Positions 29,117 to 62,542 of a stretch of DNA of 64,000 bases are shown here, piece after piece. Within the stretch, counting starts at the first letter, position 1; every line of letters starts with the position of its first letter. The notes beneath the pieces were generated by a model. That model had not been told where the DNA came from and ran no database searches. It worked only from the letters and a program-made list of their open reading frames with translations. The position numbers and the translations under genes were made by a program. The stretch is taken from the NCBI RefSeq assembly GCF_021390175.1, contig NZ_CP090004.1:2232001-2296000 (forward strand), in the 5' to 3' direction. Origin of the DNA: Flagellimonas sp. HMM57. Lineage in GTDB: Bacteria; Bacteroidota; Bacteroidia; Flavobacteriales; Flavobacteriaceae.

Positions 29117-29126
29117 TGTAGTTGTT

Positions 29127-32375: not shown

Positions 32376-35300
32376 TTTGATTTCTTTCTAAAAATAAAGG
32401 AGCGGAATTATTAATGCCAATAATATAAAATTCCTTTGTATCGATAGTTATTTTTTCAATACTTCTAGATGGCCCAGGGATATTGATTTTCAAATCTTTG
32501 GCCCAATGCAATCCATTTTCCCCAAAACGTAAAAATATACCATGTGATGCATCCATCCTACCGAGTTGTGTGCTAATTTCATAATTGTTTCCGACGGCGA
32601 GAATTTCTTTTTTTCCATCTTCATCAAAATCAGCTATCATCATATCATTTATAGTGGAAATCTGTGCCATTTTAGGGAATTCAATTTTTCTAAATGTATT
32701 ATTTCCCAAGTTTTCAAAATAACAGCTGGAAAGCTCATAAACTTTTTTTTGCATAGTCTTTTCCAGATTTTTTGAACCAAAGAGCTCGTTCAGGGATGCC
32801 TTTGCAAAGTCGTTATAGGACAGAAACTTTTTATTCAAAAAAGGCATTTGTTTTACCAACTCATCTTTAGAGGCAAAAGGAGTTTCTTTTTCATTGTGAA
32901 AATAGGTTACCAATGGTTCTACGGAACCATTCGAATCAAAATCATGGCTATAAAGCGTAATGGGGTATTCCAATGAGGCTTTAAATTTACTGTTCTGGCC
33001 CCAATTCCCCGCTACAAGGTCTATATCTCCATCATTGTCAAAATCTTCTGCAAGAATACAGTTCCAAAATCCATTGGTCTTTTCCAGCCCATTATTTAAG
33101 GCAGGATTTAGGTTTTTTCCATCATTCATGAAAATGGAAAGTGGCATCCAATTCCCTACTGCAATAAGGTCTTTGAATCCATTACCGTCCAAATCCATCC
33201 AAACAACATCTTTGACGTTGCCTACGGATTCAAAGTTTTTCGCAACAGTTGCGGTTACATTTTTAAAATTGCCCTTCCCATCATTTTCGAATAAATATTG
33301 TGCCGAAGTAATTCCAAATTGCTGCGGCAATTGATCCGAAGTAATCGTGAGATCCATATCGCCATCGTTATCAAAATCAACAGCAATTACTTTTGAAGCA
33401 TTCAGCTCTATACCTGCGAATGCATTGGGCTGTTTTTCAAAAATACCCTTATTGTTAAGGTAAAGCCTTGGCTGAATTCTATTGGAAGATTTGAACTCGT
33501 TGCCCGCACTCACAACGATTAAATCTTGAAACTCATCGCCATTAGCGTCAAAAAAAGCATGGGAGACATCTTCGTTAAAGGCATCGACAGCAAAAACGGT
33601 TTCCTGTTCGCTGTTAAAAGAACCATCAATCTGTTGAACATATAATTTGGAGGCTTGTACTTTTGCCCCTGAGACAAAAATATCTTGAAGGCCATCATTG
33701 TTTATATCGGCAATCGAAATTGAAGGCCCCTCATTGGTGTTTGCAAATGGAACCAAAGGGTCTCTGTCGAACTCAAATGTATTTTGCTCTTTATGGATAA
33801 ATGGGATTATACTATCTTTTTGGACAAGTACAGAGTGCCTTTCGTATTTGTTTTCTAGATAAAAGTTGCCAGCTGCATTTTTCTCTTCCAGTTGTAGATT
33901 ACCGGCTGCCACAGCCTTTAAGGTTTGATGTTTTCCACCTGGCCAGACGACAGTGAGCGAATCCAAAATGGAGTCCTTGCCAATTCCCATGTGAATTGTG
34001 TTGGGAACCGCGGATAAATATCCCCTGCTCACAAAGTTCTCTTGGATAATAGTTCTGTTCTTGGTGCAGGCAATAACCTTAGCTCCAATACCAAATATAT
34101 TGTTTGTATTTCCTTTAAAAACTAGCTGTAAAGCATTTTGCTTCGATGTTTCGTTGAATGTGTTCTCCAAGATTGAAGCCTCATCATTGACATTGTTTAT
34201 TACTAAATCCAAATCTCCATCGTTATCCAAGTCTGCGTAAACACAACCATTGCTAAAGGAAGCTTCTTTTTTAAACCAAGCATCGGTTACGTCTTTAAAT
34301 GTAAGGTCACCATTGTTGCTGAAGAAATAATTAGGGACTTTTTTTTCTGGAAGTTCGTTGATGAAGGCCATTTCTTTTTCGGACATTCCTTCTTCAATTT
34401 TCTTCTGGATTTTATCATTGGCAATAAAACTGATAAAGTCCATATCATTGGTTGCCCCTTTTATTCCGTTAGAAACGAACAGGTCTTTATGACCATCATT
34501 ATCAAAATCTGCAAAAAGAGCTCCCCATGACCACTCTGTGGCGGAAATACCAGAAAGATTTGCTATCTCGCTAAAATTGTTGTCTCCCAAATTTAAAAGA
34601 AATGCATTTTGCATGTATTGTGGCGCGAATCCGTTTTTTAGATATTGCTGGTATATGGGAAAAGGATATTCCAGACCAGAGGTTTTGTAAGTTTCCAGAT
34701 TTTCAGGTAACATATCCAAAGAAATAATGTCTGTTAAACCATCATTATTTACATCGGCAATATCATTGCCCATGGAGAAATGCGAAGTATGTCCAACCTT
34801 ACGGCTGTCTTTTGAAATGATTTCTTTGAACGTACCGTCTTTTTGATTGATGTAGAGATAATCATTTTCAAAAAAGTCATTGCCAACATAAATATCTGGA
34901 TAACCATCGTTGTTAAGGTCGCTAATCCCTAGACCAAGACCATACCCAATGCCACCTTGAAAAATTCCCGCATCTTTTGAAACATCTATAAACTTGCCAT
35001 TGTCATTTCTGTATAGAACATCACCTGATAAGGAGTCAATCTGCTTTCTTTTTGTTCCTTTTCCATAAGAACGATTTGGATTTACAGAGTGGTTTAGCAA
35101 AAACATGTCCAAATCGCCATCAAGGTCATAGTCAAAAAAAGCGGCCTGTGTAGAGAACCCAGAAAAATCGAGATTGTATTTGGATGCTTCTTCTTTGAAC
35201 TTAGGTATCCCTTCTGTGTTTACCCCCTGATTCACATAGAGTAAATTTTTGCCTTTAATGCCCTTATATTGACCAACTTTACAAATATAAATGTCCAGTA

Positions 35301-35667
35301 GCCCGTCATTATTAATATCTACATGCGTCACCCCAGTTGTCCATCCATCCTTGTTCTGAATATTGGCAGCTTTGGTAATATCGTCAAACTTAAAATCTCC
35401 TTTGTTCAAATACAGTTTATCCTCAGTTTGGTTTCCTGTAAAATAGAGATCTATTAGACCATCGTTATTGAAATCTCCAGCTGCTACACCTGCACCGTTA
35501 TAATAATAGAGATAGGTGAGAATGTTTAGTTCTGGAGTGTCCTTAAGTTCATTTTTAAAGGTTATGCCAGTATGCGAAGAAGATTGTTTTCTAAATACGT
35601 TTTCTTCTTCCTTGTTACAAGAAATGAAAATGCCAAATACCCAAAAAGCCAATAAAACCCTAGTCAT
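32368..35667 (-). CDS. giant FG-GAP/ASPIC-UnbV (CRTAC1-like) lipoprotein, copy 2
   Basis: Exported lipoprotein of about 1099 residues. ATG 35667 (MTRVLLAFWVFGIFISCNKEEE) is chosen because it starts the lipobox signal directly; 35700 would add 11 residues. The CNKEEE after the lipid-modified Cys resembles the X-K-(D/E)2 surface-export signal described in Capnocytophaga, suggesting display on the cell surface. FG-GAP blades (AAGDFNNDGLIDLYFTGN, GDLDMFLLNHSVNPN) lead to an ASPIC/UnbV domain at about 510-600 (FVSRGYLSAVPNTIHMGIG, LTVVWPGG) and a second propeller (SIADINNDGLQDIFVSGAK, FDSNGSVEPLVTYFHN). Same architecture as copies 1 and 3. It is the first gene of the haloperoxidase operon, 141 bases after the SGLT-like transporter. 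Confidence 0.9.
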   Translation of the reverse strand: MTRVLLAFWVFGIFISCNKEEENVFRKQSSSHTGITFKNELKDTPELNILTYLYYYNGAGVAAGDFNNDGLIDLYFTGNQTEDKLYLNKGDFKFDDITKAANIQNKDGWTTGVTHVDINNDGLLDIYICKVGQYKGIKGKNLLYVNQGVNTEGIPKFKEEASKYNLDFSGFSTQAAFFDYDLDGDLDMFLLNHSVNPNRSYGKGTKRKQIDSLSGDVLYRNDNGKFIDVSKDAGIFQGGIGYGLGLGISDLNNDGYPDIYVGNDFFENDYLYINQKDGTFKEIISKDSRKVGHTSHFSMGNDIADVNNDGLTDIISLDMLPENLETYKTSGLEYPFPIYQQYLKNGFAPQYMQNAFLLNLGDNNFSEIANLSGISATEWSWGALFADFDNDGHKDLFVSNGIKGATNDMDFISFIANDKIQKKIEEGMSEKEMAFINELPEKKVPNYFFSNNGDLTFKDVTDAWFKKEASFSNGCVYADLDNDGDLDLVINNVNDEASILENTFNETSKQNALQLVFKGNTNNIFGIGAKVIACTKNRTIIQENFVSRGYLSAVPNTIHMGIGKDSILDSLTVVWPGGKHQTLKAVAAGNLQLEEKNAAGNFYLENKYERHSVLVQKDSIIPFIHKEQNTFEFDRDPLVPFANTNEGPSISIADINNDGLQDIFVSGAKVQASKLYVQQIDGSFNSEQETVFAVDAFNEDVSHAFFDANGDEFQDLIVVSAGNEFKSSNRIQPRLYLNNKGIFEKQPNAFAGIELNASKVIAVDFDNDGDMDLTITSDQLPQQFGITSAQYLFENDGKGNFKNVTATVAKNFESVGNVKDVVWMDLDGNGFKDLIAVGNWMPLSIFMNDGKNLNPALNNGLEKTNGFWNCILAEDFDNDGDIDLVAGNWGQNSKFKASLEYPITLYSHDFDSNGSVEPLVTYFHNEKETPFASKDELVKQMPFLNKKFLSYNDFAKASLNELFGSKNLEKTMQKKVYELSSCYFENLGNNTFRKIEFPKMAQISTINDMMIADFDEDGKKEILAVGNNYEISTQLGRMDASHGIFLRFGENGLHWAKDLKINIPGPSRSIEKITIDTKEFYIIGINNSAPLFLERNQNE

Positions 35668-35808
35668 ACAAATGATAAAAGAATTTGTCAAGATAACCAA
35701 TCCATTTAGGTTGAAAAATTCTTAAGCGTTAATATTCATGGTATTTACATGTATGGGTGCCATCGAATAAAAGGTGCATTTCGCAGCGTGGCAAAGGGAA
35801 TTGATTTT

Positions 35809-37461
35809 TTAATTCCAGAACATTGCATACAGCGCAGTAAGAATGATCAACACCGCAAATGCCCCAATATTGAACAAAGGTGTGGTTTTAAATAGACCAC
35901 CTCCCAACTGGATTCCTTTTTTATCATCCTTTCCTTTGTTTTGCGAAAGACTTGCAATAATAATTACCAATGCTGTCAGTAGTGCTGTATATCCCATTTG
36001 ATCGATAAAAGGAACATCAATGAATAACGAACTTGTAGACCAACCATTTGGGGCTACTTTAAAATACATGGCTATGGGGATAGAAACCAAAGCACCTATA
36101 ATAGCTCCCCTGTTCGTCGTCTTTTTCCAGAAAAGTCCTAACATGAAAACTGCAAGTATCCCTGGGCTTACGATTCCGGTATATTCTTGGATAAATTGAA
36201 AGGCCTGATCAATACCTCCTAACAAAGGTGCCATAATAGCTGCGATAATCAGTGCAATAGCGGCAGAGATCCTACCAACGTTTACTGTTTTTTTATCACT
36301 TGCATTTTTGTTGATATACTGTCTATAAATATCCATGGTGAATATTGTAGAGGTGGAATTGAGCATCGAAGCCAATGAAGAAACAATGGCAGCTGCCAAA
36401 GCAGCGAAAGCAACTCCTTTCAAACCTACTGGTAAAAATTGCAACAACCAAGGATACGCTTTGTCCGCTTGATCTAAGGAAGGAAGGTTCTTAAGTCCAG
36501 CATCCCCTAAACTTGCCAAAATCTCAGGGTCATTGACCATAACATAGGCTGCAATACCTGGAACCACAACAATTAACGGAATAATGAGTTTTAAGAAAGC
36601 GGCCAAAAGGATACCTTTTTGGGATTCCTTTAAAGATTTAGCGGCAAGAGTACGTTGAATGATATATTGGTTAAATCCCCAATAGTAGAGGTTTGCAACC
36701 CATAATCCACCAACGAGTACGCCAATACCGGGCAGATTTTTATATTCTGGATTGGATTCATCCAAAATCATGGCAAATTTTTCGGGAACGGCATCGTAAA
36801 CCTTGCTTAAACCTACCATTATCCCTTCTCCACCTGATACTGTGTTCAAGGCCAGATACGTGGTGACCAGTCCGCCCAAGATTAAAAATACAACTTGAAT
36901 GACATCGGTCCATGCCACAGCAGAAAGACCGCCGTACAAAGAGTACGCCGCTGCAAAAAGGGAAAGACCTATTACCCCATAAATCATTGGTACATCAAGG
37001 ATTGTTTCTAGCGCCAGTGCTCCTAAATAAAGGACGGAAGCTAGATTGACAAAAACATAAAGTGCAATCCAAAAAACAGCCAATATTGTTTTTAGATTGG
37101 TAGAATATCTTTTTTCAACAAATTCTGGAATGGTATAAAGCCCTTTTTCTATAAAAATTGGAAGAAAGTATTTTCCAACAATGATCAACGTCAATGCGGC
37201 CATCCACTCATAAGAAGCAATGGCGAGTCCAACAGCGAAACCAGAGCCCGACATTCCAATAAATTGTTCTGCGGAAATGTTTGCAGCAATCAATGAAGCA
37301 CCAATGGCCCACCATGGTAGCGATTTACTGGCCAAAAAATAATCTTCAGCATTTTTTTGATGTCCTTTTTTATCTCTAGAGACCCAAAGACCTACTCCTA
37401 AAATAAGTATGGCATAGCAGACAAATATTAAATAATCCCAAGTGCTGAATGAAGTTGTCAT
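35809..37461 (-). CDS. SGLT-like sodium/solute symporter (SSS family)
   Basis: Inner membrane transporter of 550 residues with about 14 helices. Family marks: WDYLIFVCYAILILGVGLWVSR and AEDYFLASKSLPWWAIGASLIAANISAEQFIGMSGSGF at the N-terminus, YGGLSAVAWTDVIQVVFLILGG (SSS signature 1 region), NQYIIQRTLAAKSLKESQKG and FAALAAAIVSSLASMLNSTSTIFTMDIY later. The AANISAEQFIGMSGSG segment is as in sugar-type SGLT/vSGLT proteins, so a sugar or sugar derivative driven by Na+ is the best guess. It lies between the sulfite oxidase block and the FG-GAP operon, 131 and 141 bases from its neighbours. Confidence 0.9.
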   Translation of the reverse strand: MTTSFSTWDYLIFVCYAILILGVGLWVSRDKKGHQKNAEDYFLASKSLPWWAIGASLIAANISAEQFIGMSGSGFAVGLAIASYEWMAALTLIIVGKYFLPIFIEKGLYTIPEFVEKRYSTNLKTILAVFWIALYVFVNLASVLYLGALALETILDVPMIYGVIGLSLFAAAYSLYGGLSAVAWTDVIQVVFLILGGLVTTYLALNTVSGGEGIMVGLSKVYDAVPEKFAMILDESNPEYKNLPGIGVLVGGLWVANLYYWGFNQYIIQRTLAAKSLKESQKGILLAAFLKLIIPLIVVVPGIAAYVMVNDPEILASLGDAGLKNLPSLDQADKAYPWLLQFLPVGLKGVAFAALAAAIVSSLASMLNSTSTIFTMDIYRQYINKNASDKKTVNVGRISAAIALIIAAIMAPLLGGIDQAFQFIQEYTGIVSPGILAVFMLGLFWKKTTNRGAIIGALVSIPIAMYFKVAPNGWSTSSLFIDVPFIDQMGYTALLTALVIIIASLSQNKGKDDKKGIQLGGGLFKTTPLFNIGAFAVLIILTALYAMFWN

Positions 37462-37592: not shown

Positions 37593-38057
37593 TTATTGTT
37601 TCAAAACATACCACTCGATGTTGGTCAATGCTTCGCGGCGCCCTTTTTTCTGAGGCGCATAATTAGTAGCGAGGTAATTTACGATTTTTTTTTCTTGGTC
37701 TCCTAAATCCCAAAGGTTTTGTGTTTCCTGCATCCATCGTATGGTCGCTATCCATCCTTCCTTGGACATTCGGTTTTGGGTTACGAGCTTGGCAGAATGG
37801 CAGTTGGTACAATTTTGAATTACTTCTGTAAGTCCGTCACCATCTACAAAACCAGTGTCAACATGGATTCCGCTTTCAATTTCATTATTGGTTTCTGGTA
37901 CTTCAACCACAGTTTCTTCTGGTTTTTTAGAAAAAACGGATGGATTCAAGGCAATATAAAGAAAACCAAATACGGCAATACCAATCATACCAAAAGCTAT
38001 TAAAATCTTTTGGTATAAATCTTTAACCTGTTTTTTGAATTCGTTTTCAGAAGACAT
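37593..38057 (-). CDS. membrane-anchored monoheme cytochrome c, likely electron acceptor of the sulfite oxidase
   Basis: Protein of 154 residues with one N-terminal anchor (ILIAFGMIGIAVFGFLYIAL) and an acidic linker before a small c-type domain. The heme is attached at CTNCH (residues about 92-96, IQNCTNCHSAKLV) and the axial Met is likely in TQNRMSKEGW. It follows the molybdenum oxidoreductase gene by 3 bases, the arrangement of SorA/SorB sulfite dehydrogenases, where the cytochrome takes the two electrons from sulfite oxidation and passes them to the respiratory chain. The anchor places it on the outer face of the inner membrane. Confidence 0.85.
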   Translation of the reverse strand: MSSENEFKKQVKDLYQKILIAFGMIGIAVFGFLYIALNPSVFSKKPEETVVEVPETNNEIESGIHVDTGFVDGDGLTEVIQNCTNCHSAKLVTQNRMSKEGWIATIRWMQETQNLWDLGDQEKKIVNYLATNYAPQKKGRREALTNIEWYVLKQ

Positions 38058-38060
38058 CAG

Positions 38061-39284
38061 CTAGATAACTTTGATTGCGATTCGATGACACGCATTGTTC
38101 AAATACCCTTTTGGATTCCATCCCGGTAAAAGCATAGGTTGGCCAGTACCTTTTGAGTCTATAGCTCTTGCCCAAACCTCATAATATCCTTTTTTCGGAA
38201 AGTTGCTAATATTTGCTGAAAAATGTTGCCAAGCCAAGCGATTTTTTGGCTTTTCTAAGGTACACTCAATCCATGTGGCACCAAAATCTATGGAATATTC
38301 CATTCTGGAAACTTCTAGTTCACCGGCCCATGCATGGCCTCGTATATTCAAAGTAGCTCCCTCTTTAATCATGGCTCCAGATTTAGGATAGGTAATCAAA
38401 GATTTTACGGGCATGGATTCTATGATGCACATATCTTCATCTGCAACCTTCTCCCCCGGAGCAACAGATTCACATGGAACCCGGTATGACGTGCCGTTCA
38501 TTTTAGCGCCATCGTGTACTTTATTTCTAATGCTAATTCTATTTATCCATTTGCCGGATGCAGAGGCAGGCCAACCTCCTGCAATCAATCTTAAAGGGTA
38601 ACCGTGGGCCAATGGAATATCTTCACCGTTCATTTTAAAAGCAAGTAAGGTTTCATCTTGGAATGCTTTAGCAATAGGAACACCTCTGGAGATAGGTTCT
38701 TTTTCAGGATTCAGGCTCAGATGTTTATCTGCTGCGTGGTACCCTATATAGACTGCATTACTTTTTATACCCACGTCTTCCAATACATCCTTTAATCGTA
38801 CACCGGTCCAGTTGGCACATGATACTGCTCCAACAGTCCACTGATTACCTTTCGCTGGTGGATTAAATTCACTTCTGCCATTTCCCCCACATTCCAAAGT
38901 AAGCTGATAGGTATAGTGTCTAAATTTTGATTTTAATTCCAACAGGGAGTAAGTCTTACTGTTTTGTACAGATTCACCGTCAAAGGTCAGCGACCAATTT
39001 TTAACGTCAATGTTTTCTGGAATAAGTCCATTGTTTCTAATAAACATGTGTTTATTTGGAGTGACTTTATCATCCAAAAGGTGTGCCTTGGCTTCAATAT
39101 TCCAGGGTTTATTGTTAAGGACCGTCATATCGGTATCCTTGCCAAACATTTTAAAGGGGTCTGGGTCTTGTAGTGCCAAGGGCTTATACCCAAAAGGTAT
39201 TTTGTGGCTAAAGACAATTTCAGTGCTTAGTATTCCACCAAAAGCACTTAGGGTTCCTTTCGCAATAAAACTACGTCGTTTCAT
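38061..39284 (-). CDS. sulfite oxidase/dehydrogenase-like molybdopterin enzyme (SorA-like)
   Basis: Exported molybdenum enzyme of 407 residues. The N-terminus MKRRSFIAKGTLSAFGG is a twin-arginine type signal. The oxidoreductase molybdopterin domain holds the Mo ligand Cys132 in LTLECGGNGRSEF, preceded by FIRNNGLIPENIDVKNWSLTFDG and followed by WTGVRLKDVLEDVGI and HGYPLRLIAGGWPASASGKWI. The C-terminal Mo-co dimerisation domain (IRGHAWAGELEVSRMEYSIDFGATW) is complete. No heme domain is fused, matching bacterial sulfite dehydrogenases that use a separate cytochrome, here the next gene. Substrate sulfite would come from the SsuD-like monooxygenase nearby. Symporter gene ends 5 bases upstream. Confidence 0.9.
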   Translation of the reverse strand: MKRRSFIAKGTLSAFGGILSTEIVFSHKIPFGYKPLALQDPDPFKMFGKDTDMTVLNNKPWNIEAKAHLLDDKVTPNKHMFIRNNGLIPENIDVKNWSLTFDGESVQNSKTYSLLELKSKFRHYTYQLTLECGGNGRSEFNPPAKGNQWTVGAVSCANWTGVRLKDVLEDVGIKSNAVYIGYHAADKHLSLNPEKEPISRGVPIAKAFQDETLLAFKMNGEDIPLAHGYPLRLIAGGWPASASGKWINRISIRNKVHDGAKMNGTSYRVPCESVAPGEKVADEDMCIIESMPVKSLITYPKSGAMIKEGATLNIRGHAWAGELEVSRMEYSIDFGATWIECTLEKPKNRLAWQHFSANISNFPKKGYYEVWARAIDSKGTGQPMLLPGWNPKGYLNNACHRIAIKVI

Positions 39285-39289
39285 CTTTT

Positions 39290-40834
39290 CTAGTGAAAAA
39301 TAATATGCAGGGCAATTAATGATAATAGCATTCCGATACCAGCTTTTCCAAGTATTGGTGAAGCGGGTTCCGCTTTTAATTTATCTCTTACAAAGCCTGT
39401 TCTAGAACCTAACCAAATAATTGTAAATCCAATTAATATAACCCACATGGCCCTTACGAAGTAATTCATTTCCGGGAAAAATTCCAAAAAGAAAAATTGA
39501 AGTGGCACGGTAGCCAAGAAACCAAATAACGCTACTCGGTGTTTTGGAAAAGCCAAAAATGCTGCAGAACATATTAAAACTACAATACCACAATTGATAA
39601 AGTATCGTAACTGATTAAGCGTATGCGTGAAAGCAGCTCCCGGATCTTGAAACTTAAGATACAATAATACAACACCAATAATAACTCCCGAGATAAAAGA
39701 TAGTAAAATAGCTCTTTTTCCAGAACGTACTATTTGCTTGTCCGAGGCATCTTTCTTTACATATACCTTGTAAATATCTATTGACCATAATGTTGCCAAG
39801 GAATTAAAAGTAGAGTCCACAGTACTCATCAGCGATGCAAAAAGTGCACATAAAATAAGGCCTTTGACTCCTATTGGTAGATAGGTGTTTACTAGATAAG
39901 GGAATGCCGCATCTGGTTCTGGTAAACCATTTTCCCCTAAAATGCCTACCAAAGCTATCCCGGGAAGAATAATAATGGCTGCCATAAAATACTTCATAAG
40001 ACCACCGACCATAAGTCCTATTTGCACGTCTTTTAGGCTTTTAGCAGCTAAAGAACGCTGGACAACAGATTGGTTGGCGCACCAGTAATTGATATTCAAG
40101 AGGAATGCTCCAAAAATATGAATCCAAGGGAGTGTATCGTGATCTGCAGGTAAATGTAGATGCATTAAATCTCCAGTTTTCTCGTATAACTGGGACCAAC
40201 CACCAAGGTGATATATGGAGATAAACAATACGACAATCCCGCCTGTCAATAAAATAGCAAATTGGATAACATCAGTACGCACTACTGCTGCTAATCCTCC
40301 AAAATAGGTGTACGTTGCTGAAAAAAGCCCCAAGAAAACAATCAATATTGCTATCCGAATCAGTCTATCTTGATGAATAAACGATAGGAAATCCCCGAAA
40401 ACCAAGTCAACGGAATAAGCTCCCCAGAATAGTGCTGCACCAAGTGTTATTGTAGAGAAAAGTAGAATATTTGAAGCAGAATACAATAAAGCAACCGTGC
40501 TTCCCAATCTTGTTTTTATGAATTGTGTTATGGTGATAATCTTTTCCCTCAAATACATGGGGACAAAAATGAAGGCCGCTAAAAGCAGTCCTTGGATTGC
40601 ATTGATTTCAAAGTTTGCCTGTGCCAATCCATAGAGGTATGCGGAGCCCATGAAACCGAGAAATTGATATCCTTGTACATTGGTTGCAATAGTTGAAAAG
40701 GCTATTGATGGCCATCGAAGGTTTCTTCCACTTAAAAAATATTCCTCTGTGGTTGCCTCCTTAGAAGTTCTACCCGTGATGGCGGTAACAAATACAATAA
40801 TGAAATAAGCACTTACAATTAGTAAATCAATCAT
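39290..40834 (-). CDS. sodium:solute symporter (SSS family), candidate sulfonate importer
   Basis: Inner membrane transporter of 514 residues and about 13-14 helices. Motifs: TTEEYFLSGRNLRWPSIAFSTIATNVQGYQFLGFMGSAY, YTYFGGLAAVVRTDVIQFAILLTGG, NQSVVQRSLAAKSLKDVQIG and LCALFASLMSTVDSTFNSLATLWSIDIY. The last block carries the Ser/Thr pair of the second sodium site. It is paralogous to the SGLT-like gene at 35809-37461 but divergent in the substrate helices. Being packed 5 bases before the sulfite oxidase gene and after the LLM/AKR genes, it most probably imports the organosulfonate; this is inference from position. Confidence 0.88.
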   Translation of the reverse strand: MIDLLIVSAYFIIVFVTAITGRTSKEATTEEYFLSGRNLRWPSIAFSTIATNVQGYQFLGFMGSAYLYGLAQANFEINAIQGLLLAAFIFVPMYLREKIITITQFIKTRLGSTVALLYSASNILLFSTITLGAALFWGAYSVDLVFGDFLSFIHQDRLIRIAILIVFLGLFSATYTYFGGLAAVVRTDVIQFAILLTGGIVVLFISIYHLGGWSQLYEKTGDLMHLHLPADHDTLPWIHIFGAFLLNINYWCANQSVVQRSLAAKSLKDVQIGLMVGGLMKYFMAAIIILPGIALVGILGENGLPEPDAAFPYLVNTYLPIGVKGLILCALFASLMSTVDSTFNSLATLWSIDIYKVYVKKDASDKQIVRSGKRAILLSFISGVIIGVVLLYLKFQDPGAAFTHTLNQLRYFINCGIVVLICSAAFLAFPKHRVALFGFLATVPLQFFFLEFFPEMNYFVRAMWVILIGFTIIWLGSRTGFVRDKLKAEPASPILGKAGIGMLLSLIALHIIFH

Positions 40835-40985
40835 AGACTATGTAATTAAATGAGTTAATTCCATAGCGCAGCGTTCCAATTTACGATTAAATGTGATTGG
40901 CCTAGTTTGAGGTGGTTGGTTATGAAATTATCCTTGATTATGTAATATACCATTTTGTTTCCAAAGTCAGTGTTCAACAGGTGCT

Positions 40986-42143
40986 TTAAATGCGTATTCC
41001 AGCAGCTAAAGGGCTCATGGGCTCTTCTGATGTTACCTTTCCTTGTACTTCCGGCATTGAGAATGTTTTTAGATGTGGTAAAACCAGTTTTGCAAAACGT
41101 TCGCACTCTTCCTTATGGGGATAACCAGAAAATATGAATGCCCTGATTCCCATGTCCATATACCTGTTTAGTTTCTCTACAATCTGGTCTGGATTCCCAA
41201 CAAGCGCTGCTCCACATCCTGAACGTCCTCTACCGATTCCTGTCCACATATGCGGTTCTACATAGCCATCGTCTTCGGCTATTTCTCTCATTTCAGCTTG
41301 CCTACTTACTCCATAAGATTTTGCATCCAAGGCTCTTTCCCGTATTTCCTTTCCTTGTTCTACTTCCAATTTGGAAACAATACTATCAGCATATGCTCGT
41401 GCTTCTTCTTCGGTTTCTCGTACCACTACATGTACCCTTAGTCCAAAGTCGATTTTACGTCCATAATTTGCTGCTTTTGCGCTCATGTTTTCCATAAGTT
41501 TACGAAGGTTCCCTTCAGTCTCGGGCCACATAAGATATACATCGCAGTGTTCGGCACATAAATCTACTGCAGCAGGTGAATAACCTCCAAAATAAAGTAA
41601 TGGACCACCATTTTGATAAGGTTTACCAGGAGAGGACGAAAGCTTCAAATTATAGAACTTGCCTTTATAATCGATATCATCTTGCGTCCAAATTTGTTTT
41701 AAAATTTCTATCACTTCCCTTGATCTTTGGTACCGGTCTTCCGATGACATTTCTTCGCCAGGTAGGGGAGAGGAAATGATATTGATGGTAAATCTGCCTT
41801 TTAAAATATGATCTATGGTAGCTAACGTTCTTGCTAACATCGGAGGGTGAATTTCTCCGCAGCGAATTGCAGCCAATAAATTGATTTGTTCCGTCATTGG
41901 AGCAACTGCGGAAACAAAAGGGAGTGTATCTTGTCCAACTTGATATGATGAAGGACATAAAATATTTCGAAACCCATTTTTATCTGCGGTAAGTACTATT
42001 TGGGAAGTATTCTCAAATGTACTTTTGTGATCCATGCTTCGTTCGCCTAAATACCTGTCGTCTCCGTTGCAAATTGGAGCAAACCATGAGACTTCGGCTC
42101 CTTCTAAATGAGGAGATCTTATTTCTATTTTTGAATTATCCAT
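40986..42143 (-). CDS. LLM-class FMNH2-dependent monooxygenase, SsuD-like (candidate sulfonate/sulfoquinovose monooxygenase)
   Basis: Cytosolic flavin monooxygenase of 385 residues, close to SsuD length. Hallmarks of the alkanesulfonate monooxygenase group are GPLLYFGGYSPAAVDLCAEHCDVYLMWPE, AANYGRKIDFGLRVHVVVRETEEEARAYAD and the C-terminal EPHMWTGIGRGRSGCGAALVGNPDQIVEKLNRYMDMGIRAFIFSGYPHKEECERF. SsuD-type enzymes use FMNH2 and O2 to cleave the C-S bond of sulfonates, releasing sulfite and an aldehyde. With an FMN reductase, an AKR, sulfite-handling genes and a LacI regulator around it, a SmoC-like role on sulfoquinovose is proposed; other sulfonates or sulfones remain possible. It lies 21 bases after the AKR gene. 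Confidence 0.85.
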   Translation of the reverse strand: MDNSKIEIRSPHLEGAEVSWFAPICNGDDRYLGERSMDHKSTFENTSQIVLTADKNGFRNILCPSSYQVGQDTLPFVSAVAPMTEQINLLAAIRCGEIHPPMLARTLATIDHILKGRFTINIISSPLPGEEMSSEDRYQRSREVIEILKQIWTQDDIDYKGKFYNLKLSSSPGKPYQNGGPLLYFGGYSPAAVDLCAEHCDVYLMWPETEGNLRKLMENMSAKAANYGRKIDFGLRVHVVVRETEEEARAYADSIVSKLEVEQGKEIRERALDAKSYGVSRQAEMREIAEDDGYVEPHMWTGIGRGRSGCGAALVGNPDQIVEKLNRYMDMGIRAFIFSGYPHKEECERFAKLVLPHLKTFSMPEVQGKVTSEEPMSPLAAGIRI

Positions 42144-42164
42144 TGTAGTTTCTTTATATTTTAT

Positions 42165-43055
42165 CTAATCAACTTCGCTGCCTAATGCTGCTTCCCATAA
42201 CATGTACCATTCTTCGTGGGTCAATGTTATATCCAAAGCCTGTTTTGCAATTTGAATACGCTCAATCTTTGAGGTTCCCAGAACGGGAATGATTCCTGCC
42301 GGATGTTTCCGCAACCATGCGTAGAGGATTTGGTCACTTGTTGCACTATACTTTTCCGCAAGTGTGCTCAACGTTTTTTGAATAGCTTGGATTTTTTCAT
42401 CCGCTCCTTCTTTGAACAACAGTCCTCCACCGAGCGGGGACCAAGCGGTCGGAATTACATTTAACTTTTGACATTGATCCAACGTGCCATCTTCAAAAGC
42501 GTTTCTGTGCAATAATGATATTTCAACTTGATTTGTAACAAGAGGCGTAAGGGAGTGCAATAAATCGAATTGCGAAGGTGAGAAATTGGACACCCCAAAA
42601 TCTAAAACCTTTCCTTCTTTTTTAAGTTTTGAAAAAGCAGCGGCAATCTCATGAGGATTAAATAAGTAATCTGGCCTGTGCAGCAAGAGAACATCTATAT
42701 AATCCGTTTGAAGGCTTGCCAACGATTTTTCGACCGAAGCAATTATATGCTCTGCACTTAAATCATATGATTTGATTTTATGTTCAGGTCTGTTTTCTGA
42801 GGTTAATTTTATACCACATTTAGTAGTAATGCGCATTTTCTTTCTTAAATCCTTTCTGGACTTGAGCACATTTCCGAAATCGTTCTCGGTGGTGTAGTGT
42901 CCATAAATATCTGCATGGTCAAAATCTATTAAGTCTAGATCAAGGCATCCTTCGATAAAACGTTCATATTCGGTGGTATTTAGATTGCTCCCCCAGGTAC
43001 CCAATCTCATAGTACCGATAATATATGGGGAAATACTGTCTTTTGTCAGTTTCAT
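42165..43055 (-). CDS. aldo/keto reductase, YdhF-like
   Basis: Cytosolic NAD(P)H-dependent reductase with a TIM-barrel fold, 296 residues from ATG 43055. Catalytic tetrad: Asp and Tyr in DFDHADIYGHY, Lys in ITTKCGIKL, His in DVLLLHRPD. Cofactor-side motifs include FGVSNFSPSQF, TNQVEISLLHR and the C-terminal PVLGTSKIERIQIAKQAL. The sequence pattern matches E. coli YdhF (COG4989). ATG 43055 is preferred over 43085 because a perfect -7 box sits at 43083-43090. In the sulfo-SMO pathway an AKR (SmoB) reduces the 6-aldehyde released by the monooxygenase to glucose; this gene stands in the right place, but SmoB identity is inference. Confidence 0.87.
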   Translation of the reverse strand: MKLTKDSISPYIIGTMRLGTWGSNLNTTEYERFIEGCLDLDLIDFDHADIYGHYTTENDFGNVLKSRKDLRKKMRITTKCGIKLTSENRPEHKIKSYDLSAEHIIASVEKSLASLQTDYIDVLLLHRPDYLFNPHEIAAAFSKLKKEGKVLDFGVSNFSPSQFDLLHSLTPLVTNQVEISLLHRNAFEDGTLDQCQKLNVIPTAWSPLGGGLLFKEGADEKIQAIQKTLSTLAEKYSATSDQILYAWLRKHPAGIIPVLGTSKIERIQIAKQALDITLTHEEWYMLWEAALGSEVD

Positions 43056-43082
43056 GTATGCTAAATGAGTCGTGTTAAGGGT

Positions 43083-43090
43083 CAAATTTA
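43083..43090 (-). promoter_or_regulatory. Bacteroidota -7 promoter box for the AKR-LLM operon
   Basis: Read on the minus strand the sequence is TAAATTTG, a perfect TAnnTTTG. It lies 27 bases before ATG 43055. The palindromic operator begins 15 bases upstream of it, covering the expected -33 region, an arrangement suited to repression. Confidence 0.6.
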
Positions 43091-43105
43091 AATAAATTAC
43101 TGATA

Positions 43106-43123
43106 AATGTAAACGTTTACATT
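43106..43123. promoter_or_regulatory. LacI-type operator, site 1
   Basis: AATGTAAACGTTTACATT is a perfect 18-bp palindrome with a central CG, the standard form of LacI/PurR-family operators. It stands in the divergent spacer between the AKR-LLM operon and the FMN reductase gene. The same 16-bp core is repeated exactly at 45745-45760. The LacI gene at 43728-44729 is the likely cognate regulator. Confidence 0.8.
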
Positions 43124-43179
43124 GTAAAATTCCATATTTTCGCCATCAAATATTATGTTTAATTTGATTTTTAGCTTGA

Positions 43180-43722
43180 ATGATTACAATTATCTCAGGA
43201 TCCAATAGAAAAAACAACAAAACTTTGCACTTTGCTAAGCATGCATACGAGAAGCTTTGTTCGGCAACCAAAGAAGAAGTAAAATTTTTGGATTTAGCAC
43301 CCCTTACAGGTAATGTCATTTATGAAAATATGTATAAAGATTCCAATCAACCCAAAATGATTCAGGAGATACAGGACACTTATTTTATACCATCTTCTAA
43401 ATTTTGGTTTTTCGTTCCAGAATACAATGGGAGTTATCCCGGAATTGTAAAACTACTCTTGGATGCGATGTCGGTTCGTGAAATTAAACCAAGCTTTGAT
43501 AATAAAAAAGCCTGCATTACTGGAATAGCTTCGGGAAGAGCAGGTAATTTAAGGGGGATGGACCATCTTGCAGATGTGTTGAACCATTTGGGAATGCATG
43601 TCCATCCAAATAAAAATCCAATTTCTTCTATTTTTAAGTTATTGAATTCTGAAAACAATTCTATACACGAGGATGCGGATAAAACCATTCAAAACCAAAT
43701 TGAACAATTACTGAGGTTTTAA
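43180..43722 (+). CDS. NAD(P)H-dependent FMN reductase
   Basis: Flavodoxin-fold reductase of 180 residues. The FMN phosphate loop is ISGSNRKNNKT at the N-terminus and the isoalloxazine-side loop is FVPEYNGSYPGIVKLLLDAM, both typical of the SsuE/ArsH-like NADPH-dependent FMN reductase family. It would supply free FMNH2 to the SsuD-like monooxygenase encoded divergently; the pair shares one palindromic operator. It is equivalent in role to SsuE or SmoA, though SmoA belongs to a different flavin reductase fold as far as I recall. It ends 5 bases from the convergent LacI gene. Confidence 0.88.
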   Translation: MITIISGSNRKNNKTLHFAKHAYEKLCSATKEEVKFLDLAPLTGNVIYENMYKDSNQPKMIQEIQDTYFIPSSKFWFFVPEYNGSYPGIVKLLLDAMSVREIKPSFDNKKACITGIASGRAGNLRGMDHLADVLNHLGMHVHPNKNPISSIFKLLNSENNSIHEDADKTIQNQIEQLLRF

Positions 43723-43727
43723 GACTT

Positions 43728-44729
43728 CTATACTTGAGTAGACGCTCTTTTAACCAACTTTGGTGATAGTACTTTGGTTTCGGGTCTTGCATTTTTATTG
43801 TTGAGGTTTTGGAGCAGTAATTCGGCTGCCAATTCTCCCATTTGAGAACATTCTTGATCAACAGTACTTATTTTGGGCTGTGTGAGGTTGCTGAAATTTG
43901 CATTCCCAAATCCAATAAGTTTTATTTTTTCTGGAACATTTACGTTTAAATCTTTGAGTAGGTTTAAAACATGAAGGCCTATTTCGTCACCATAGGCAAA
44001 AATGCCGTCCATGTTCGGGTTCACTTTGAACAATTTTTTTAAGATCTTCATATCTTTTTCTACATCTCCTGTCAATTCTACGATATGGGACGTAATATCT
44101 TTTCTCCCACTTTTTAAAATTGCATTGGAAAAACCCCTCTGTCGATCTTTGAAAATCGAAACTTTGGGATTCCCAGCAACATGAAGAAGGTTCTTGCAAT
44201 TGCTAGTCAATAAATGTTCGGTAGCTATAAAGGCTCCCATATAATCGTTGAGCGTTACAGAGTTTACACTATCTAAATTTGGTATCCTGTCGAAGAAAAC
44301 TATGGGTGTTTTGCTCTTCAATATTTTTTTAATTGAAGAAAAGTCAGTTGTTTGTTTAGAAATGGACAGTAATATGCCCTCCACATTTAATTTTAGAAAC
44401 GAGTTTAGGGCTTCGTCTTCTTTCTCTTGCAATTCATGGGATTGTGCGATGATGATATTATAATCGGATTCGCTTACAATTCCTTCTATTCCATTTATGA
44501 TACCACTAAAAAAATAATTGTTCACTTCTGGGACGATTACCCCAATAATTTTGCTTTTTCCACTGCGCAAAGCAGCCGCTGTAATATTGGGCTGATAATC
44601 TAGGTCCTTTGCTGCTTTTAGTACTTTTTGCCTTGTTGTTGGAGAAACAAGCGCACTGTTGTTGAATACCCTAGATACCGTAGCTAAGGATAGTCCAGTT
44701 CGTTTAGCAATTTCCTTTATTCCTGCCAT
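43728..44729 (-). CDS. LacI-family transcriptional regulator, likely controlling the sulfonate locus
   Basis: Regulator of 333 residues. The N-terminal helix-turn-helix reads IKEIAKRTGLSLATVSRVFNNSALVS, followed by the hinge helix ITAAALRSGKSKIIGVIVPE and a periplasmic-binding-protein-like effector domain (VNNYFFSGIINGIEG, GAFIATEHLLTSNCKNLLHVAG, LIGFGNANFSNLTQPKISTVDQECSQMG). The hinge Leu typical for minor-groove insertion is in AALRSG. Two identical palindromes (43106-43123, 45745-45760) bracket this gene, its upstream neighbour yeiH and the FMN reductase, so they are its probable operators. The effector is likely the imported sulfonated sugar or a product. Confidence 0.93.
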   Translation of the reverse strand: MAGIKEIAKRTGLSLATVSRVFNNSALVSPTTRQKVLKAAKDLDYQPNITAAALRSGKSKIIGVIVPEVNNYFFSGIINGIEGIVSESDYNIIIAQSHELQEKEDEALNSFLKLNVEGILLSISKQTTDFSSIKKILKSKTPIVFFDRIPNLDSVNSVTLNDYMGAFIATEHLLTSNCKNLLHVAGNPKVSIFKDRQRGFSNAILKSGRKDITSHIVELTGDVEKDMKILKKLFKVNPNMDGIFAYGDEIGLHVLNLLKDLNVNVPEKIKLIGFGNANFSNLTQPKISTVDQECSQMGELAAELLLQNLNNKNARPETKVLSPKLVKRASTQV

Positions 44730-44782
44730 GTAAGCCTTTATTAAACCCTATTTGTGATTTCACAAAAGGAATTTCTAAAATG

Positions 44783-45715
44783 TTAAACGTAATTTAAGAC
44801 ATATAGTAAAGAGACAATGCCCAAAACAATCCACGTAAAAATACCAACTATTAGAATGTTGAAGCCAAGCTTTTTTAGTTGTGAAATGTTAATTTGTAAA
44901 CCGATCAAGAAAAGTGTGAATATCAATGCCTTTCGTGCACCCCATACAATATGTTCACTAAAAACCTCAGCGGATGATACGTAAGAATTGATCAACATTG
45001 CCCCGATAAACCCAAAAATGAACCATGGGAATGTAAATTTTTCTTTTGAGTTAGAACCGAACGAAATGATCAGTACTAATGGAATGATCCAAAGTGTCCT
45101 GACCAGTTTAGTAGTGGTAGCTACATTTAATGCAACATTTCCGTAAACTTCCGCTGCGCCGACCACAGAACTTGTATCGTGAATAGCGATGGCGCTCCAA
45201 GTACCAAATTGAATTTGATTTAGTTCAAAGTAATGACCAATGTATGGGAAGATAAATAGTGCAATAGCGTTGAGCAAAAAAACAATGGCAAGTGAAATTG
45301 AGGTTTGGGATGAATCGGCTTTTAAACTTGGACTGACCGCTGCAATAGCACTGCCACCACATATGGCTGTTCCAGAAGCAACCAATATTGTGGTAATTCT
45401 TTCTGAATTAAGGATTTTGCCAATAGCAAAAGCAATGATAAAAGTGCAAACAATAGTAATGAGTGTAATGAAAAAGCTATTTGAGCCAACTTCTATGGCT
45501 TGTTGCATGTGAATTCCGAAACCAAGTCCAACCACCGAAAGCTGTAACAAGGTTTTTTGGAAATTCTTACTGTTTTGAACTAAATCCTGTTCGGCAATCT
45601 TGAAGATTCCGCAAACCATTCCTGCACCAAGGGCTATTGCAGGAGATATATATCCTAAAAGGGTACCAATAAGTACCACTATACCCAATATATATGTCGC
45701 TGTTTTTGAAAGCAT
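44783..45715 (-). CDS. YeiH/PSE-family membrane protein, putative sulfate/sulfite exporter
   Basis: Integral membrane protein of 310 residues with about nine or ten helices, member of the conserved 698 family (PF03601-type). Family marks: GYISPAIALGAGMVCGI, LLQLSVVGLGFGIHMQQAIEVG, ILVASGTAICGGSAIAAVSPSLKA, and the last helices LIFTLFLIGLQINISQLKKLG. Some members are annotated as sulfate exporters; experimental proof is thin. Its position next to a LacI gene and behind a copy of the operator suggests export of sulfite or sulfate released from sulfonate. It precedes lacI by 53 bases and probably shares its transcript. Confidence 0.85.
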   Translation of the reverse strand: MLSKTATYILGIVVLIGTLLGYISPAIALGAGMVCGIFKIAEQDLVQNSKNFQKTLLQLSVVGLGFGIHMQQAIEVGSNSFFITLITIVCTFIIAFAIGKILNSERITTILVASGTAICGGSAIAAVSPSLKADSSQTSISLAIVFLLNAIALFIFPYIGHYFELNQIQFGTWSAIAIHDTSSVVGAAEVYGNVALNVATTTKLVRTLWIIPLVLIISFGSNSKEKFTFPWFIFGFIGAMLINSYVSSAEVFSEHIVWGARKALIFTLFLIGLQINISQLKKLGFNILIVGIFTWIVLGIVSLLYVLNYV

Positions 45716-45744
45716 TCTGAATGGCTGTAAATCTACAAATAAAA

Positions 45745-45760
45745 ATGTAAACGTTTACAT
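45745..45760. promoter_or_regulatory. LacI-type operator, site 2
   Basis: ATGTAAACGTTTACAT is a perfect 16-bp palindrome identical to the core of site 1. It lies 29 bases before the YeiH start. A 7-of-8 match to the -7 box (minus-strand TTTATTTG, plus-strand 45736-45743) abuts it, so bound repressor would cover the promoter of yeiH-lacI, giving autoregulation. Confidence 0.8.
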
Positions 45761-45778: not shown

Positions 45779-48700
45779 CTACTTGTTGTATCTAAATATT
45801 TTTGGTTTCTGACTATTGATGGCAACAAATAAAAACGCTACACCATTTTTATCTTTAAAGGTTTGAAGATGTTTTACTTCACCTCTCACATAAAAACCAG
45901 ATTCATCATGAGGTAACCAATCGTACTCGCCATTTTCACTTGCAATTAAGACACTACCATAACTTGCGTCCAGTCTACCATACTGTGGCTTAAAATTGTA
46001 ATTATTGCCCGCTAAAATGATATCGAGTTTGCCATCTCCGTTAATATCCTTGCAGTTAACACTACAAATGCACGAAAATTGTGTCTCTCTTGGCAGCTTC
46101 TTTATGTCAAAATTACCAGTTCCATCGTTTATCGCAATAACGCTCTCGGTAGTATTAACTTCTTTGACAATAGTGTTTTTTAAAATGCTGGGATCTATCA
46201 ATTGATCAATACTTTTAGTTGCGTAGTCCGAAAACTTCAAATTCTGTTTTTTTAACGATACGAGTTGTGAGGTCAATTCTCTTTTTAGGGATACGGGAAA
46301 ATCTCTATTATCAATACTTCTTGTAACGATTTGTTCTATTGTTCCATTATCATCAAAATCGTTGATAAACATTTTGGCCGGAGCTTCTTTTGAAGCATTG
46401 TACGCCGCATTGCTTCCTTGGTTTCCCAGTATCAGATCTATATCGCCATCATTGTCCAAGTCTTTAGGATAAACCGTATTCCACCAACCGAGTAAGTTAT
46501 CTAATGAACTTGTTTTCGGACTAAGTCTTCTTCCGTTGTTCTTGAAAATCTTAGGACTTCCCCAATCGGTCATTACCACCAAATCTTTTTTCGAATCCCC
46601 ATCTACATCTGCCCATTTGGCGTCTGTGACCATTCCTGCTTTTTTAAGGTGAAATGCTTTACTTTCAGTTATGTCCGAAAAGTTTCCTTCCCCATCATTC
46701 TGCAGAAATAGATGTTGTGGTGTAACCCCATAAGTGCCAAGGATACTTCTGCTTCCAATAAAAAGGTCTTGGTCACCATCAGCATCAAAATCATAGGGAG
46801 CAATTACCGAAACATTGGTATTGAGACTTGCTATTTTATTAGGGCTTTTGGAAAAGTTTCCTTTTCCATCATTAATATAGATGCGATTCTGGTAATTGCT
46901 TGCATCCCCAGGAATGTTTCCGCCTGATCCAACCACTAAATCCATATCTCCATCTCCATCTACATCTACAAAAGCAGAAGCAGTATCTTCAAAAAGCCTA
47001 TCGGCCCTAAAAACATCTTGGACATATGCTGGCTTTAGTGTGCCATTCCCTTTGTGCAGATATATTTTTGCGGCTTCGCCTTTGGCACCACCAATAAAAA
47101 TATCTTCATTGCCATCATTGTCAATATCCGCTACAGCAATTGTTGGTCCTTCTTTGGAAAGCATTTTTGATATAAGCCCTTCATAATCAAAATCTACATG
47201 CCTGTCCTCAATATGCCTAGGTATCGAAGATTCTATTTCGGTCAAAAATGGTGTTTTGATTTCTTCAATCTTTTTGAAAATTTCAACAGCATCAACTTGT
47301 TTGAGTATTAATGTTGTGTTGATGGTAACGGATGTGAGTGTTTGGGTTTCATCATTGGGCCATATCACCCGTAACGAATCAATCGTTGATTTTTTTCCGA
47401 GGCCTATAACCATTTTATAATCTACCGAGGATTGAAAACCTCTGCTCGGAATCAGTTCTTGCCGTATTATTTCGCTCCCTGTAAAAAGTTCTACAACGCT
47501 GCCTACCCCAAAGGTATTCGGAGCCTTTCCTATCAGATTTATATTGATATAATTGTTCGAGCTCTTTTCGGAGTTATTTTGGTATACAAAAAGTTCTTGG
47601 TTTACGTTATTTACAATGATATCCAAGTCACCATCGTTGTCTAAATCCCCATAGGCTGCCCCGTTGGAAAAACTAGGGGTATTTAATCCCCAATTTTCAG
47701 ATGAATTTGAAAAAGTTAAATCTCCATTGTTCTTAAAAGCATAATTTGAGATAGGGGTGGAGGGCATAGCATTGATAACCGCATCTTTTTGGTCTTTACT
47801 CCCAGAAATGGCAGTTTGTTGCCTAGCTACATCTTCAAAAAAATCTATAAAGTCTTGATTGGTCAAGTCATGGTAAATACCGTTGCACACATAAATATCT
47901 CGATAACCATCATTATCCATATCGAAGAGAAGCGCTCCCCAGCTCCAGTCCGTTCCGGAAACTCCACTATAATTGGCAATTTCTGAAAACGAATTTCCTT
48001 GATTCAGTTGCAGTGTATTCTGCATGTATTGATAATAATAATCATTCTGCAGTTTTCGTTGGTGTGTGTCGTAGGTCTCAAAAGTGGTCGTGTTTTTCAA
48101 TCTTTCATCGCCTTCGGGCAACATATCGGTAACAAAAATATCCGACTTTCCATCGTTATTGATATCTGCCATATCCGCTCCCATGGAAAATAAGCTTAAA
48201 TGGTTGGCCCAATCCTTAATACTTTCGGTAAAAGTTCCATCTTGATTGTTAATGTAGAGATAGTCATGTTCAAAAAAATCATTGGACACATAGATATCAG
48301 GGAAAAGATCATTGTTAATATCCCCTATAGTGACTCCTAGACCAAACCCCACAAGGCTCCCGTATATGTTGGCCTCCTCGCTTACATCTTTAAAAACACC
48401 ATTATCATTTCGAAACAGTTTATCTCCACCACCTTTTATTTCATCTATGACGTTCCAGTCTTCGGCTCTTAAGTCTCTTTTGTTTTCATACCCTAAACTA
48501 GCTACTGGTATGAAACTATTGTTCAGCATATATACATCAAGGTCCCCATCTTTATCATAATCGAAGAATGCTGCATGCGTAGTGAACCCGCTATCTGCTA
48601 AGTTGTATTGTTCTGCTTTTTCGGTAAAGGTCAAATCTCCATTGTTGATGAAGAGTTCATTTTTCTGGTCATCTCCTTTAATGTTACCAGCATTGCAGAC

Positions 48701-49114: not shown

Positions 49115-49259
49115 CTGATGTTGAGATAAGTTTGAATATGAGATCATTATGTTTTTGAAAGTATCAAAAGGTACAACCTTTTATATCTTGAAAACTAACT
49201 ATTTTGAGCCGACTTTCATAATGATATGTTGATATTAACGCTGTTAAAATTTATAATAA

Positions 49260-55328: not shown

Positions 55329-55386
55329 TTTTGCAATGTCTTATTCCAAGGCATGCATTTAACTACCTACATTTTAGTTTACAGCA

Positions 55387-62486: not shown

Positions 62487-62542
62487 TGTAGGTTTGTTAA
62501 AGTTTTATGGGTAAATAGTTTTGTTTGTCAACTGCCAATAGT

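Follow-up and report, generated by a model that had tools for sequence, protein, structure and literature searches.

A locus of eight genes in the genome of Flagellimonas sp. HMM57 (Flavobacteriaceae; GCF_021390175.1) probably encodes a sulfolytic pathway of the sulfoquinovose monooxygenase (sulfo-SMO) type. Its substrate would be sulfoquinovose (SQ), most likely supplied as sulfoquinovosyl-glycerol (SQ-glycerol), and the pathway would be joined to periplasmic sulfite oxidation and to a LacI regulon that includes glpD. We give this reading as a whole a probability of about 0.74. The window we analysed is a stretch of 64,000 nucleotides, positions 2232001-2296000 of NZ_CP090004.1, in a single-contig genome of 4,159,450 bases. 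The key enzyme is a luciferase-like monooxygenase (LLM), and judged on this protein the nearest named relatives are Allomuricauda and Flagellimonas.

We propose that an SGLT-type symporter takes up SQ or SQ-glycerol together with Na+. A flavin mononucleotide (FMN) reductase would provide FMNH2 to the SmoC-type LLM, which would convert SQ, FMNH2 and O2 to sulfite and 6-dehydroglucose, and an aldo-keto reductase (AKR) would reduce the latter to glucose. A YeiH-family protein would carry sulfite outward to the periplasm, where a molybdenum (Mo) enzyme exported by the twin-arginine translocation (Tat) route would oxidize it to sulfate and pass the electrons to a membrane cytochrome c. A LacI-family protein would repress the divergent SMO promoters, its own YeiH-LacI unit and glpD; through glpD, the aglycone glycerol would be burned at the same time. 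We would class the system as a Bacteroidota variant of sulfo-SMO, whose chemistry is already known because the key enzyme appears to be of a known kind. This version is nonetheless distinct and widespread: it has its own set of partners and a putative regulon including glpD, and its sulfoquinovosidase (SQase) is missing.

Gene content of the locus

A preliminary description of this DNA had named eight genes at one locus, and all eight are intact open reading frames where it placed them:

37593-38057, minus strand: monohaem cytochrome c, SorB-like, probably membrane-anchored (CTNCH at residue 83; hydrophobic N-terminal stretch)
38061-39284, minus strand: SorA-like Mo sulfite oxidase, probably periplasmic (PF00174 and PF03404; Tat motif; CGGNGR)
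39290-40834, minus strand: SSS-family symporter, SGLT-type sodium:sugar, putative importer of SQ or SQ-glycerol (SSF, 161.5 bits)
40986-42143, minus strand: LLM of 385 residues, predicted SmoC/SquD-type FMNH2-dependent SQ monooxygenase (phmmer, tree, diagnostic columns, identities)
42165-43055, minus strand: AKR, putative 6-dehydroglucose reductase (PF00248, 185.7 bits; an alternative TTG start at 43085 is possible)
43108-43121, no strand: putative operator TGTAAACGTTTACA in the AKR/FMN reductase gap, between divergent promoters (conserved in relatives)
43180-43722, plus strand: NAD(P)H:FMN reductase of the PF03358 type, divergent from the operon (69.7 bits)
43728-44729, minus strand: LacI-family regulator, putative repressor of the SMO regulon (LacI, 57.5 bits; Peripla_BP_3, 97.5 bits)
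44783-45715, minus strand: YeiH-family exporter, putatively of sulfite (PF03601, 195.6 bits)
45746-45759, no strand: putative operator TGTAAACGTTTACA upstream of YeiH-LacI (conserved in relatives)

Seven of the eight proteins carry the expected Pfam domains above cut-off (Bac_luciferase, Aldo_ket_red, FMN_red, SSF, Oxidored_molyb with Mo-co_dimer, LacI with Peripla_BP, and Cons_hypoth698). The call of the cytochrome rests on its CxxCH site, because its sole Pfam match, Dehyd-heme_bind, is below cut-off (20.9 versus 25.2 bits).

The AKR, LLM, symporter, SorA-like and cytochrome genes form a co-directional run, separated in that order by 21, 151, 5 and 3 bases. The FMN reductase gene is transcribed away from the AKR gene, across the shared operator. 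YeiH and LacI form a second unit, in which LacI follows YeiH co-directionally after 53 bases and the second operator stands upstream of both. The order YeiH-LacI-FMN reductase-AKR-LLM-symporter-SorA-cytochrome is identical in six relatives (L002, L003, L004, L005, L007 and L010, the last from Flagellimonas meridianipacifica DSM 25027), so the grouping is more than chance. The two operators, a flanking SusC/SusD pair and a distant glpD come in addition to what the preliminary description contained.

Placement of the monooxygenase

Sequence comparison identifies the LLM as a predicted SQ monooxygenase of the SmoC/SquD type and an orthologue of SmoC. Its best phmmer matches in the PDB are 7oh2 (504 bits) and 7olf (493 bits), followed by 7jv3 (243 bits) and 1nqk (203 bits). 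We take the first two to be SmoC of A. tumefaciens and of Rhizobium oryzae, and the others to be MsuD and E. coli SsuD. The PDB titles of the four entries read 'Alkanesulfonate monooxygenase' in three cases and 'Methanesulfonate sulfonatase' in one. Independent labels for the reference enzymes came from five plasmid clusters in which the LLM has an AKR nearby, along with a neighbor that is MocA-type, a 'putative dehydrogenase' or GH31.

A tree of 54 rows was built from the window protein, seven reference SMO enzymes, 40 other relatives, five SsuD/MsuD sequences and SfnG. The window protein fell together with the seven references and the 40 others; the five SsuD/MsuD sequences split off with support of 98/96, and SfnG was also placed outside the SMO group. 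Placement with dimethylsulfone or methanesulfonate enzymes had been named beforehand as the refuting outcome, and the phylogeny favored the SMO enzymes instead. Identity is 59-60% to five of the references (59% to 7oh2), 57% to that of Salipiger and 50% to that of Novosphingobium, compared with 37% to MsuD and 31-34% to four SsuD proteins. We defined 58 diagnostic columns as those in which the seven references agree on a residue that the five SsuD/MsuD sequences lack. The window protein keeps 44 of them, together with 79 of the 117 columns that are invariant among the six close references.

Putative operators and a proposed link to glycerol

The palindrome TGTAAACGTTTACA has three exact sites in the whole 4.16-Mb genome, compared with none for a reversed control pattern, and allowing one mismatch adds no further site. 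The third site lies just upstream of the distant glpD, which encodes a glycerol-3-phosphate dehydrogenase (Pfam DAO and DAO_C). The LacI of the locus presumably pairs with this operator. The family of the regulator had been taken to argue for a sugar substrate; it is a weak argument on its own and gains from its fit with the operators.

We then scanned 20 further genomes, 13 drawn from SMO loci and seven others. The 13 hold 25 sites and the seven hold none; one of the seven (G341) is SMO-positive with a diverged LacI. Finding sites in 13 of 13 genomes is not an independent test, because 12 of them were already known to have an exact operator near the LLM; the independent part is the rarity of sites across each genome and the location of the extra ones. 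Of the 25 sites, 22 lie in or beside SMO clusters (one, in G409, assigned by position only) and two lie before glpD (G397 and G398). A glpD search over 23 genomes returned 14 loci, with a readable upstream region in 12. The site is exact in G229, G397 and G398 and has one mismatch in G405, all of them SMO-positive, and the best match is five mismatches off in the SMO-negative genomes G384 (a congener) and G001. Among the genomes read, a good glpD site tracks the Flagellimonas/Allomuricauda group; the SMO-negative congener lacks one.

Gene neighborhoods lead to the same connection. We counted genes around 101 LLM loci, after two duplicate contigs had been dropped and with two loci coming from one genome (G644); the counts are lower bounds, because the LLM has at least three genes on both sides in 67 of them. 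An SSS symporter gene stands no more than three genes from the LLM in 72 loci, an FMN reductase of this kind in 11, a SorA-like gene in seven and GlpD in eight, two of which also have GlpK. The GlpD protein of one locus (L031) has the DAO and DAO_C domains. On the Novosphingobium plasmid pLA3 the gene order is GH31-LacI-AKR-LLM-GlpD-GlpK. The operator and the gene neighborhoods thus each connect SMO with the oxidation of glycerol-3-phosphate. This would be expected of cells feeding on SQ-glycerol, and we infer that SQ-glycerol is the natural food. The operator shared with glpD offers a testable clue for a glycerol glycoside as the real food, and at the same time exposes the missing glycosidase.

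Proposed uptake and sulfite handling

The preliminary description had a sodium symporter in the place of ABC import, and this agrees with our comparison: among PDB chains the symporter is nearest to sodium/glucose cotransporters, with 2xq2 as best match (175.7 bits), SGLT1 and SGLT2 next, and 5nv9, presumably a sialic-acid transporter, lower at 81.4 bits.

The Mo enzyme combines the sulfite oxidase domains PF00174 and PF03404 with a twin-arginine motif and with CGGNGR at residue 132, whose Cys we take to be the expected Mo ligand. It scores below the NCBIfam cut-offs of SorA (224.1 versus 600 bits), SorT (189.5 versus 570) and SoxC (169.3 versus 420), and the cytochrome scores below that of SorB (28.6 versus 93). 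The domains, the Mo-site Cys, the Tat motif and the adjacent cytochrome are those expected of SorAB; with both scores below the family cut-offs, 'SorAB-like' is the apt term for the sulfite handling suggested earlier. If the Mo enzyme is periplasmic, sulfite first has to exit the cytoplasm, which would give the YeiH protein its role. This protein is above the PF03601 cut-off and below that of TIGR00698 (121.4 versus 232.6 bits). A 'putative sulfate exporter family transporter' gene is present in three of the five proteobacterial plasmid SMO clusters (Ruegeria, Rhizobium and Salipiger) and was not seen in the stretches read of the other two. SorA-like and cytochrome genes also adjoin the LLM in G644 (L198). 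On a Spirosoma plasmid, a SmoC-like gene lies with SusC/SusD, a cytochrome c gene and a sulfite dehydrogenase gene.

Taken together, the SmoC-clade placement of the LLM, its identity and diagnostic residues, the SGLT-like symporter and the glpD-shared operator agree with an oxidative sulfonate pathway resembling sulfo-SMO, as first suggested, and point to a sulfosugar glycoside rather than to taurine or alkanesulfonates.

The two reductases

The AKR is 41% identical to SmoB (7bby) and 45-46% identical to YdhF, and it has the motifs in which AKRs carry D, Y, K and H. A 28-row tree separates two clades of AKRs from SMO loci, one with 18 members from Bacteroidota (100/98) and one with five from proteobacteria (100/99). 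YdhF is nearer the Bacteroidota clade (90/81, branch not starred), and the rooting is uncertain because two long branches join in this tree. We read this as a probable case of parallel use of one AKR family by Bacteroidota and proteobacterial SMO loci, not orthology. The AKR gene that the earlier proposal called for, to reduce 6-oxo-glucose to glucose, is present, but its product lies outside the SmoB clade.

The FMN reductase is likewise present as described. It is far below the NCBIfam cut-offs of MsuE (26.7 versus 212.5 bits) and SsuE (19.9 versus 164.05 bits), and its Pfam family, PF03358, differs from that of the flavin reductase in the Ruegeria SMO cluster, PF01613.

Evidence against the proposal and alternative readings

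Several results weigh against the proposed pathway, the first of them concerning the glycosidase that SQ-glycerol would call for. The preliminary description had suggested a search for a GH31 SQase. We rejected this candidate for the genome, as none of its PF01055 (GH31) proteins reaches the cut-off of the YihQ family (NF007746, 553 bits): of four PF01055 places, three encode full proteins scoring 205, 134 and 205 bits and the fourth is a weak match of 25.9 bits. In a YihQ-family search of 64 genomes, all drawn from LLM-positive ones, the Flagellimonas genome has two places beyond 1e-50, both under the cut-off, and two genomes pass it, those of loci L027 (Saprospiraceae) and L042 (Chitinophagales); the E. 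coli control matched without passing the cut-off and is therefore an imperfect control. A GH188 residue pattern, built from the numbering in PMC10755693 and recovered in two control sequences (Ruegeria and Rhizobium), is present in none of the 13 MocA-type proteins of the genome. Second, the AKR is unsupported as an orthologue of SmoB, lying outside the SmoB clade and closer to YdhF, and an AKR of this type is found within three genes of the LLM in 38 of the 101 loci, so that many LLMs would have no such reductase or use another. Third, the operator has exceptions. With one mismatch allowed, the reversed control gives two places in the genome; the last of the 25 sites in other genomes, an exact one, stands before an unrelated gene (G400); and the best match upstream of glpD is three mismatches off in G399, four in G400, G401, G403 and G406, and five in G341, all SMO-positive.

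Glycoside hydrolases do occur near the LLM elsewhere. Within three genes of it, GH13 is found in seven of the 101 loci, a GH188-like gene in two (both Chloroflexota), and a GH31 like that of Novosphingobium in none. We rejected the GH13 protein as SQase: its NHDF and GEG residues are common in GH13 proteins not beside an LLM, and in a motif comparison of 34 loci, 11 of which (including L193) were dropped by the motif filter, the conserved regions resemble ordinary alpha-glucosidases. The single match to it in the Flagellimonas genome has 51% identity and lies at a distance of about 2 Mb. We keep the GH13 beside the LLM as a lead only. Such genes of the alpha-glucosidase family lie at 6769-8418 in L009 (Flavobacterium sp. 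ASW18X), 6768-8417 in L016, 6195-7838 in L019 and 4211-5857 in L044, and also beside the LLM in L193, L194 and L195; in L009 and L016 the GH13 gene is paired with an FMN reductase gene.

One alternative is that free SQ is the only substrate and that glpD is co-regulated for some other reason, such as burning glycerol from co-encountered lipids. The failure to find the known SQase types (GH31 and GH188) in the genome and the restriction of the good glpD operator to the Flagellimonas/Allomuricauda group speak for it. We nevertheless consider it unlikely, since other Bacteroidota also have glpD next to the LLM, and Novosphingobium has it there together with a GH31 gene.

Alternatively, the LLM could be a SmoC relative whose substrate is a different sugar sulfonate, such as sulfofucose, sulforhamnose or a sulfonated oligosaccharide; the AKR would then reduce the corresponding 6-aldehyde. 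The position of the AKR would fit, as would the 14 of 58 diagnostic columns in which the LLM differs, 11 of them within its first 54 residues, and the recurrence of GH13 near the LLM, although its motifs are ordinary. The close identity to 7oh2 makes this quite improbable, as does the clade shared with LLMs from clusters that contain a gene of the GH188 type or a GH31 gene.

A sulfur-scavenging system for alkanesulfonate, methanesulfonate or dimethylsulfone, as resemblance to the NCBIfam SsuD (279.1 bits) and SfnG (169.4 bits) families might suggest, is very improbable, given that these scores are far under the curated cut-offs (518.2 and 382.95), that the LLM tree separates SsuD, MsuD and SfnG, that the symporter is sugar-like, and that a sulfite oxidase would waste sulfur and presumably fit poorly.

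Distribution in other genomes

In a contig scan, at least 590 stretches, of the 591 listed, encode a relative; the best 80 of these (67-92% identity) comprise, by their titles, 75 from Bacteroidota, three from other phyla (Calditrichia and two Chloroflexota) and two unnamed. In whole genomes, at a threshold of E 1e-100, the LLM is present in 22 of the 397 genomes sampled from the same family and in seven of the 395 sampled from the phylum, the Flagellimonas genome included in each. SmoC-type genes are also found in several other Bacteroidota families, and SmoC-like genes are carried on plasmids of Emticicia and Spirosoma (L158 and L159).

It is possible, and we suggest it tentatively, that these loci represent a widespread marine Bacteroidota branch of sulfo-SMO, in which the same C-S cleaving enzyme works with a transporter, a flavin reductase and an aldehyde reductase that were each recruited separately, and SQ-glycerol is used via an SQase that is neither GH31 nor GH188. 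If so, the LLM-adjacent GH13 would be a candidate SQase in some lineages.

Partner genes vary among the loci. A GntP (gluconate-permease-like) gene precedes the LLM in small-genome flavobacteria such as Arcticimaribacter (L060, 8600-9940; L074, L105 and L106). In L004 (14648-17459) and L006 (13099-15910), an FGGY-family kinase gene, xylulokinase-like by reading, and a gene read as xylose isomerase, with no Pfam match, lie beside the SMO cluster.

Comparison with known systems

Marine Bacteroidota rank among the main consumers of algal material, and SQ is a very abundant sulfosugar of plants and algae. Its production is put at about 10 billion tons per year (PMC10755693). Two reviews place the monooxygenase route, there called sulfo-ASMO, mainly in alpha- and beta-proteobacteria (PMC9594981, PMC12890257), and a 2026 survey adds Actinomycetota and Spirochaetota (PMC13372026). 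This survey counts a genome as positive only with both SmoB and SmoC near each other (PMC13372026), and might therefore miss loci that have no SmoB-like AKR. Titles and abstract openings of the literature searched held no description of a Bacteroidota sulfo-SMO; supplements of PMC13372026 may list Bacteroidota.

The sulfo-SMO pathway of A. tumefaciens and Novosphingobium aromaticivorans (SmoABC; SquD/SquF) shares with the window a C-S cleaving monooxygenase of the same clade, an adjacent flavin reductase and AKR, and sulfite and glucose as expected products. For SQ-glycerol, A. tumefaciens relies on an ABC transporter (PMC9594981), where the window has the SGLT-type symporter. The window differs further in its AKR, which is outside the SmoB clade, and in having its own sulfite oxidase-like gene and cytochrome; the GH31 or GH188 SQase that is common in known systems, though not in every cluster, was not found in its genome. 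We take the strain that PMC10755693 calls 'Flavobacterium sp. strain K172' to be an actinobacterium under an old name.

The plasmid clusters of Ruegeria sp. TM1040, Rhizobium sp. SL42 and Salipiger sp. CCB-MM3 likewise have a SmoC-type LLM, an AKR, a flavin reductase and a YeiH-family exporter. Unlike the window, these Roseobacter and rhizobial clusters have a TRAP transporter, a GntR regulator, a MocA-type neighbor (GH188 residues checked in Ruegeria and Rhizobium) and a PF01613 flavin reductase (checked in Ruegeria). The pLA3 cluster of Novosphingobium pentaromativorans, with LacI, AKR, LLM, GlpD and GlpK in one run, shows the same glycerol link as the window's operator; it differs by its own GH31 gene and by a glpD inside the cluster rather than at a distance. 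With SorAB and SorT, the window proteins share PF00174 with PF03404, the Mo-site Cys, the Tat motif and an adjacent monohaem cytochrome c; they differ in scoring far under the NCBIfam SorA, SorT, SoxC and SorB cut-offs and in a cytochrome that looks membrane-anchored.

Flanking genes

Two features toward the window end may bear on glycerol:

61758-62486: MIP-family channel, GlpF-like (MIP, 154.5 bits)
62543-64000, minus strand: FGGY-family kinase, name read from sequence as glycerol kinase, continuing past the window end (FGGY_N, 214.9 bits)

A partnership of this kinase and channel in handling glycerol freed from SQ-glycerol is possible but unproven, and a whole-genome exact search found no SMO operator near either gene. 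They belong to a group at 59734-64000 that also includes genes for GDPD and an HI0933-like FAD protein, in an order kept in Allomuricauda (L148).

At 53937-59561, a second LacI gene (LacI2) is followed by GH65 and GH13 genes, opposite SusC/SusD. The SusC-LacI2 gap holds its own palindrome, CGAAAACGGTTTCG at 54032, distinct from the SMO operator and with a similar one in L148 and L006. We therefore left SusC/SusD out of the SMO regulon; it may belong to the alpha-glucoside side, with LacI2, GH65 and GH13.

Genes on either side of the cluster (27785-35700 and 45779-49147) encode three large FG-GAP/ASPIC-UnbV proteins and one PAP2-type protein, and an FG-GAP gene adjoining YeiH is kept in several flavobacterial SMO loci. 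A second SSS symporter gene lies at 35809-37461. Near the corresponding place, L002, L003, L004 and L010 have a different SSS gene (34-35% identical) in the opposite direction, and in L013 and L015 an SSS protein 77% identical to the second symporter is encoded upstream of the AKR-LLM pair.

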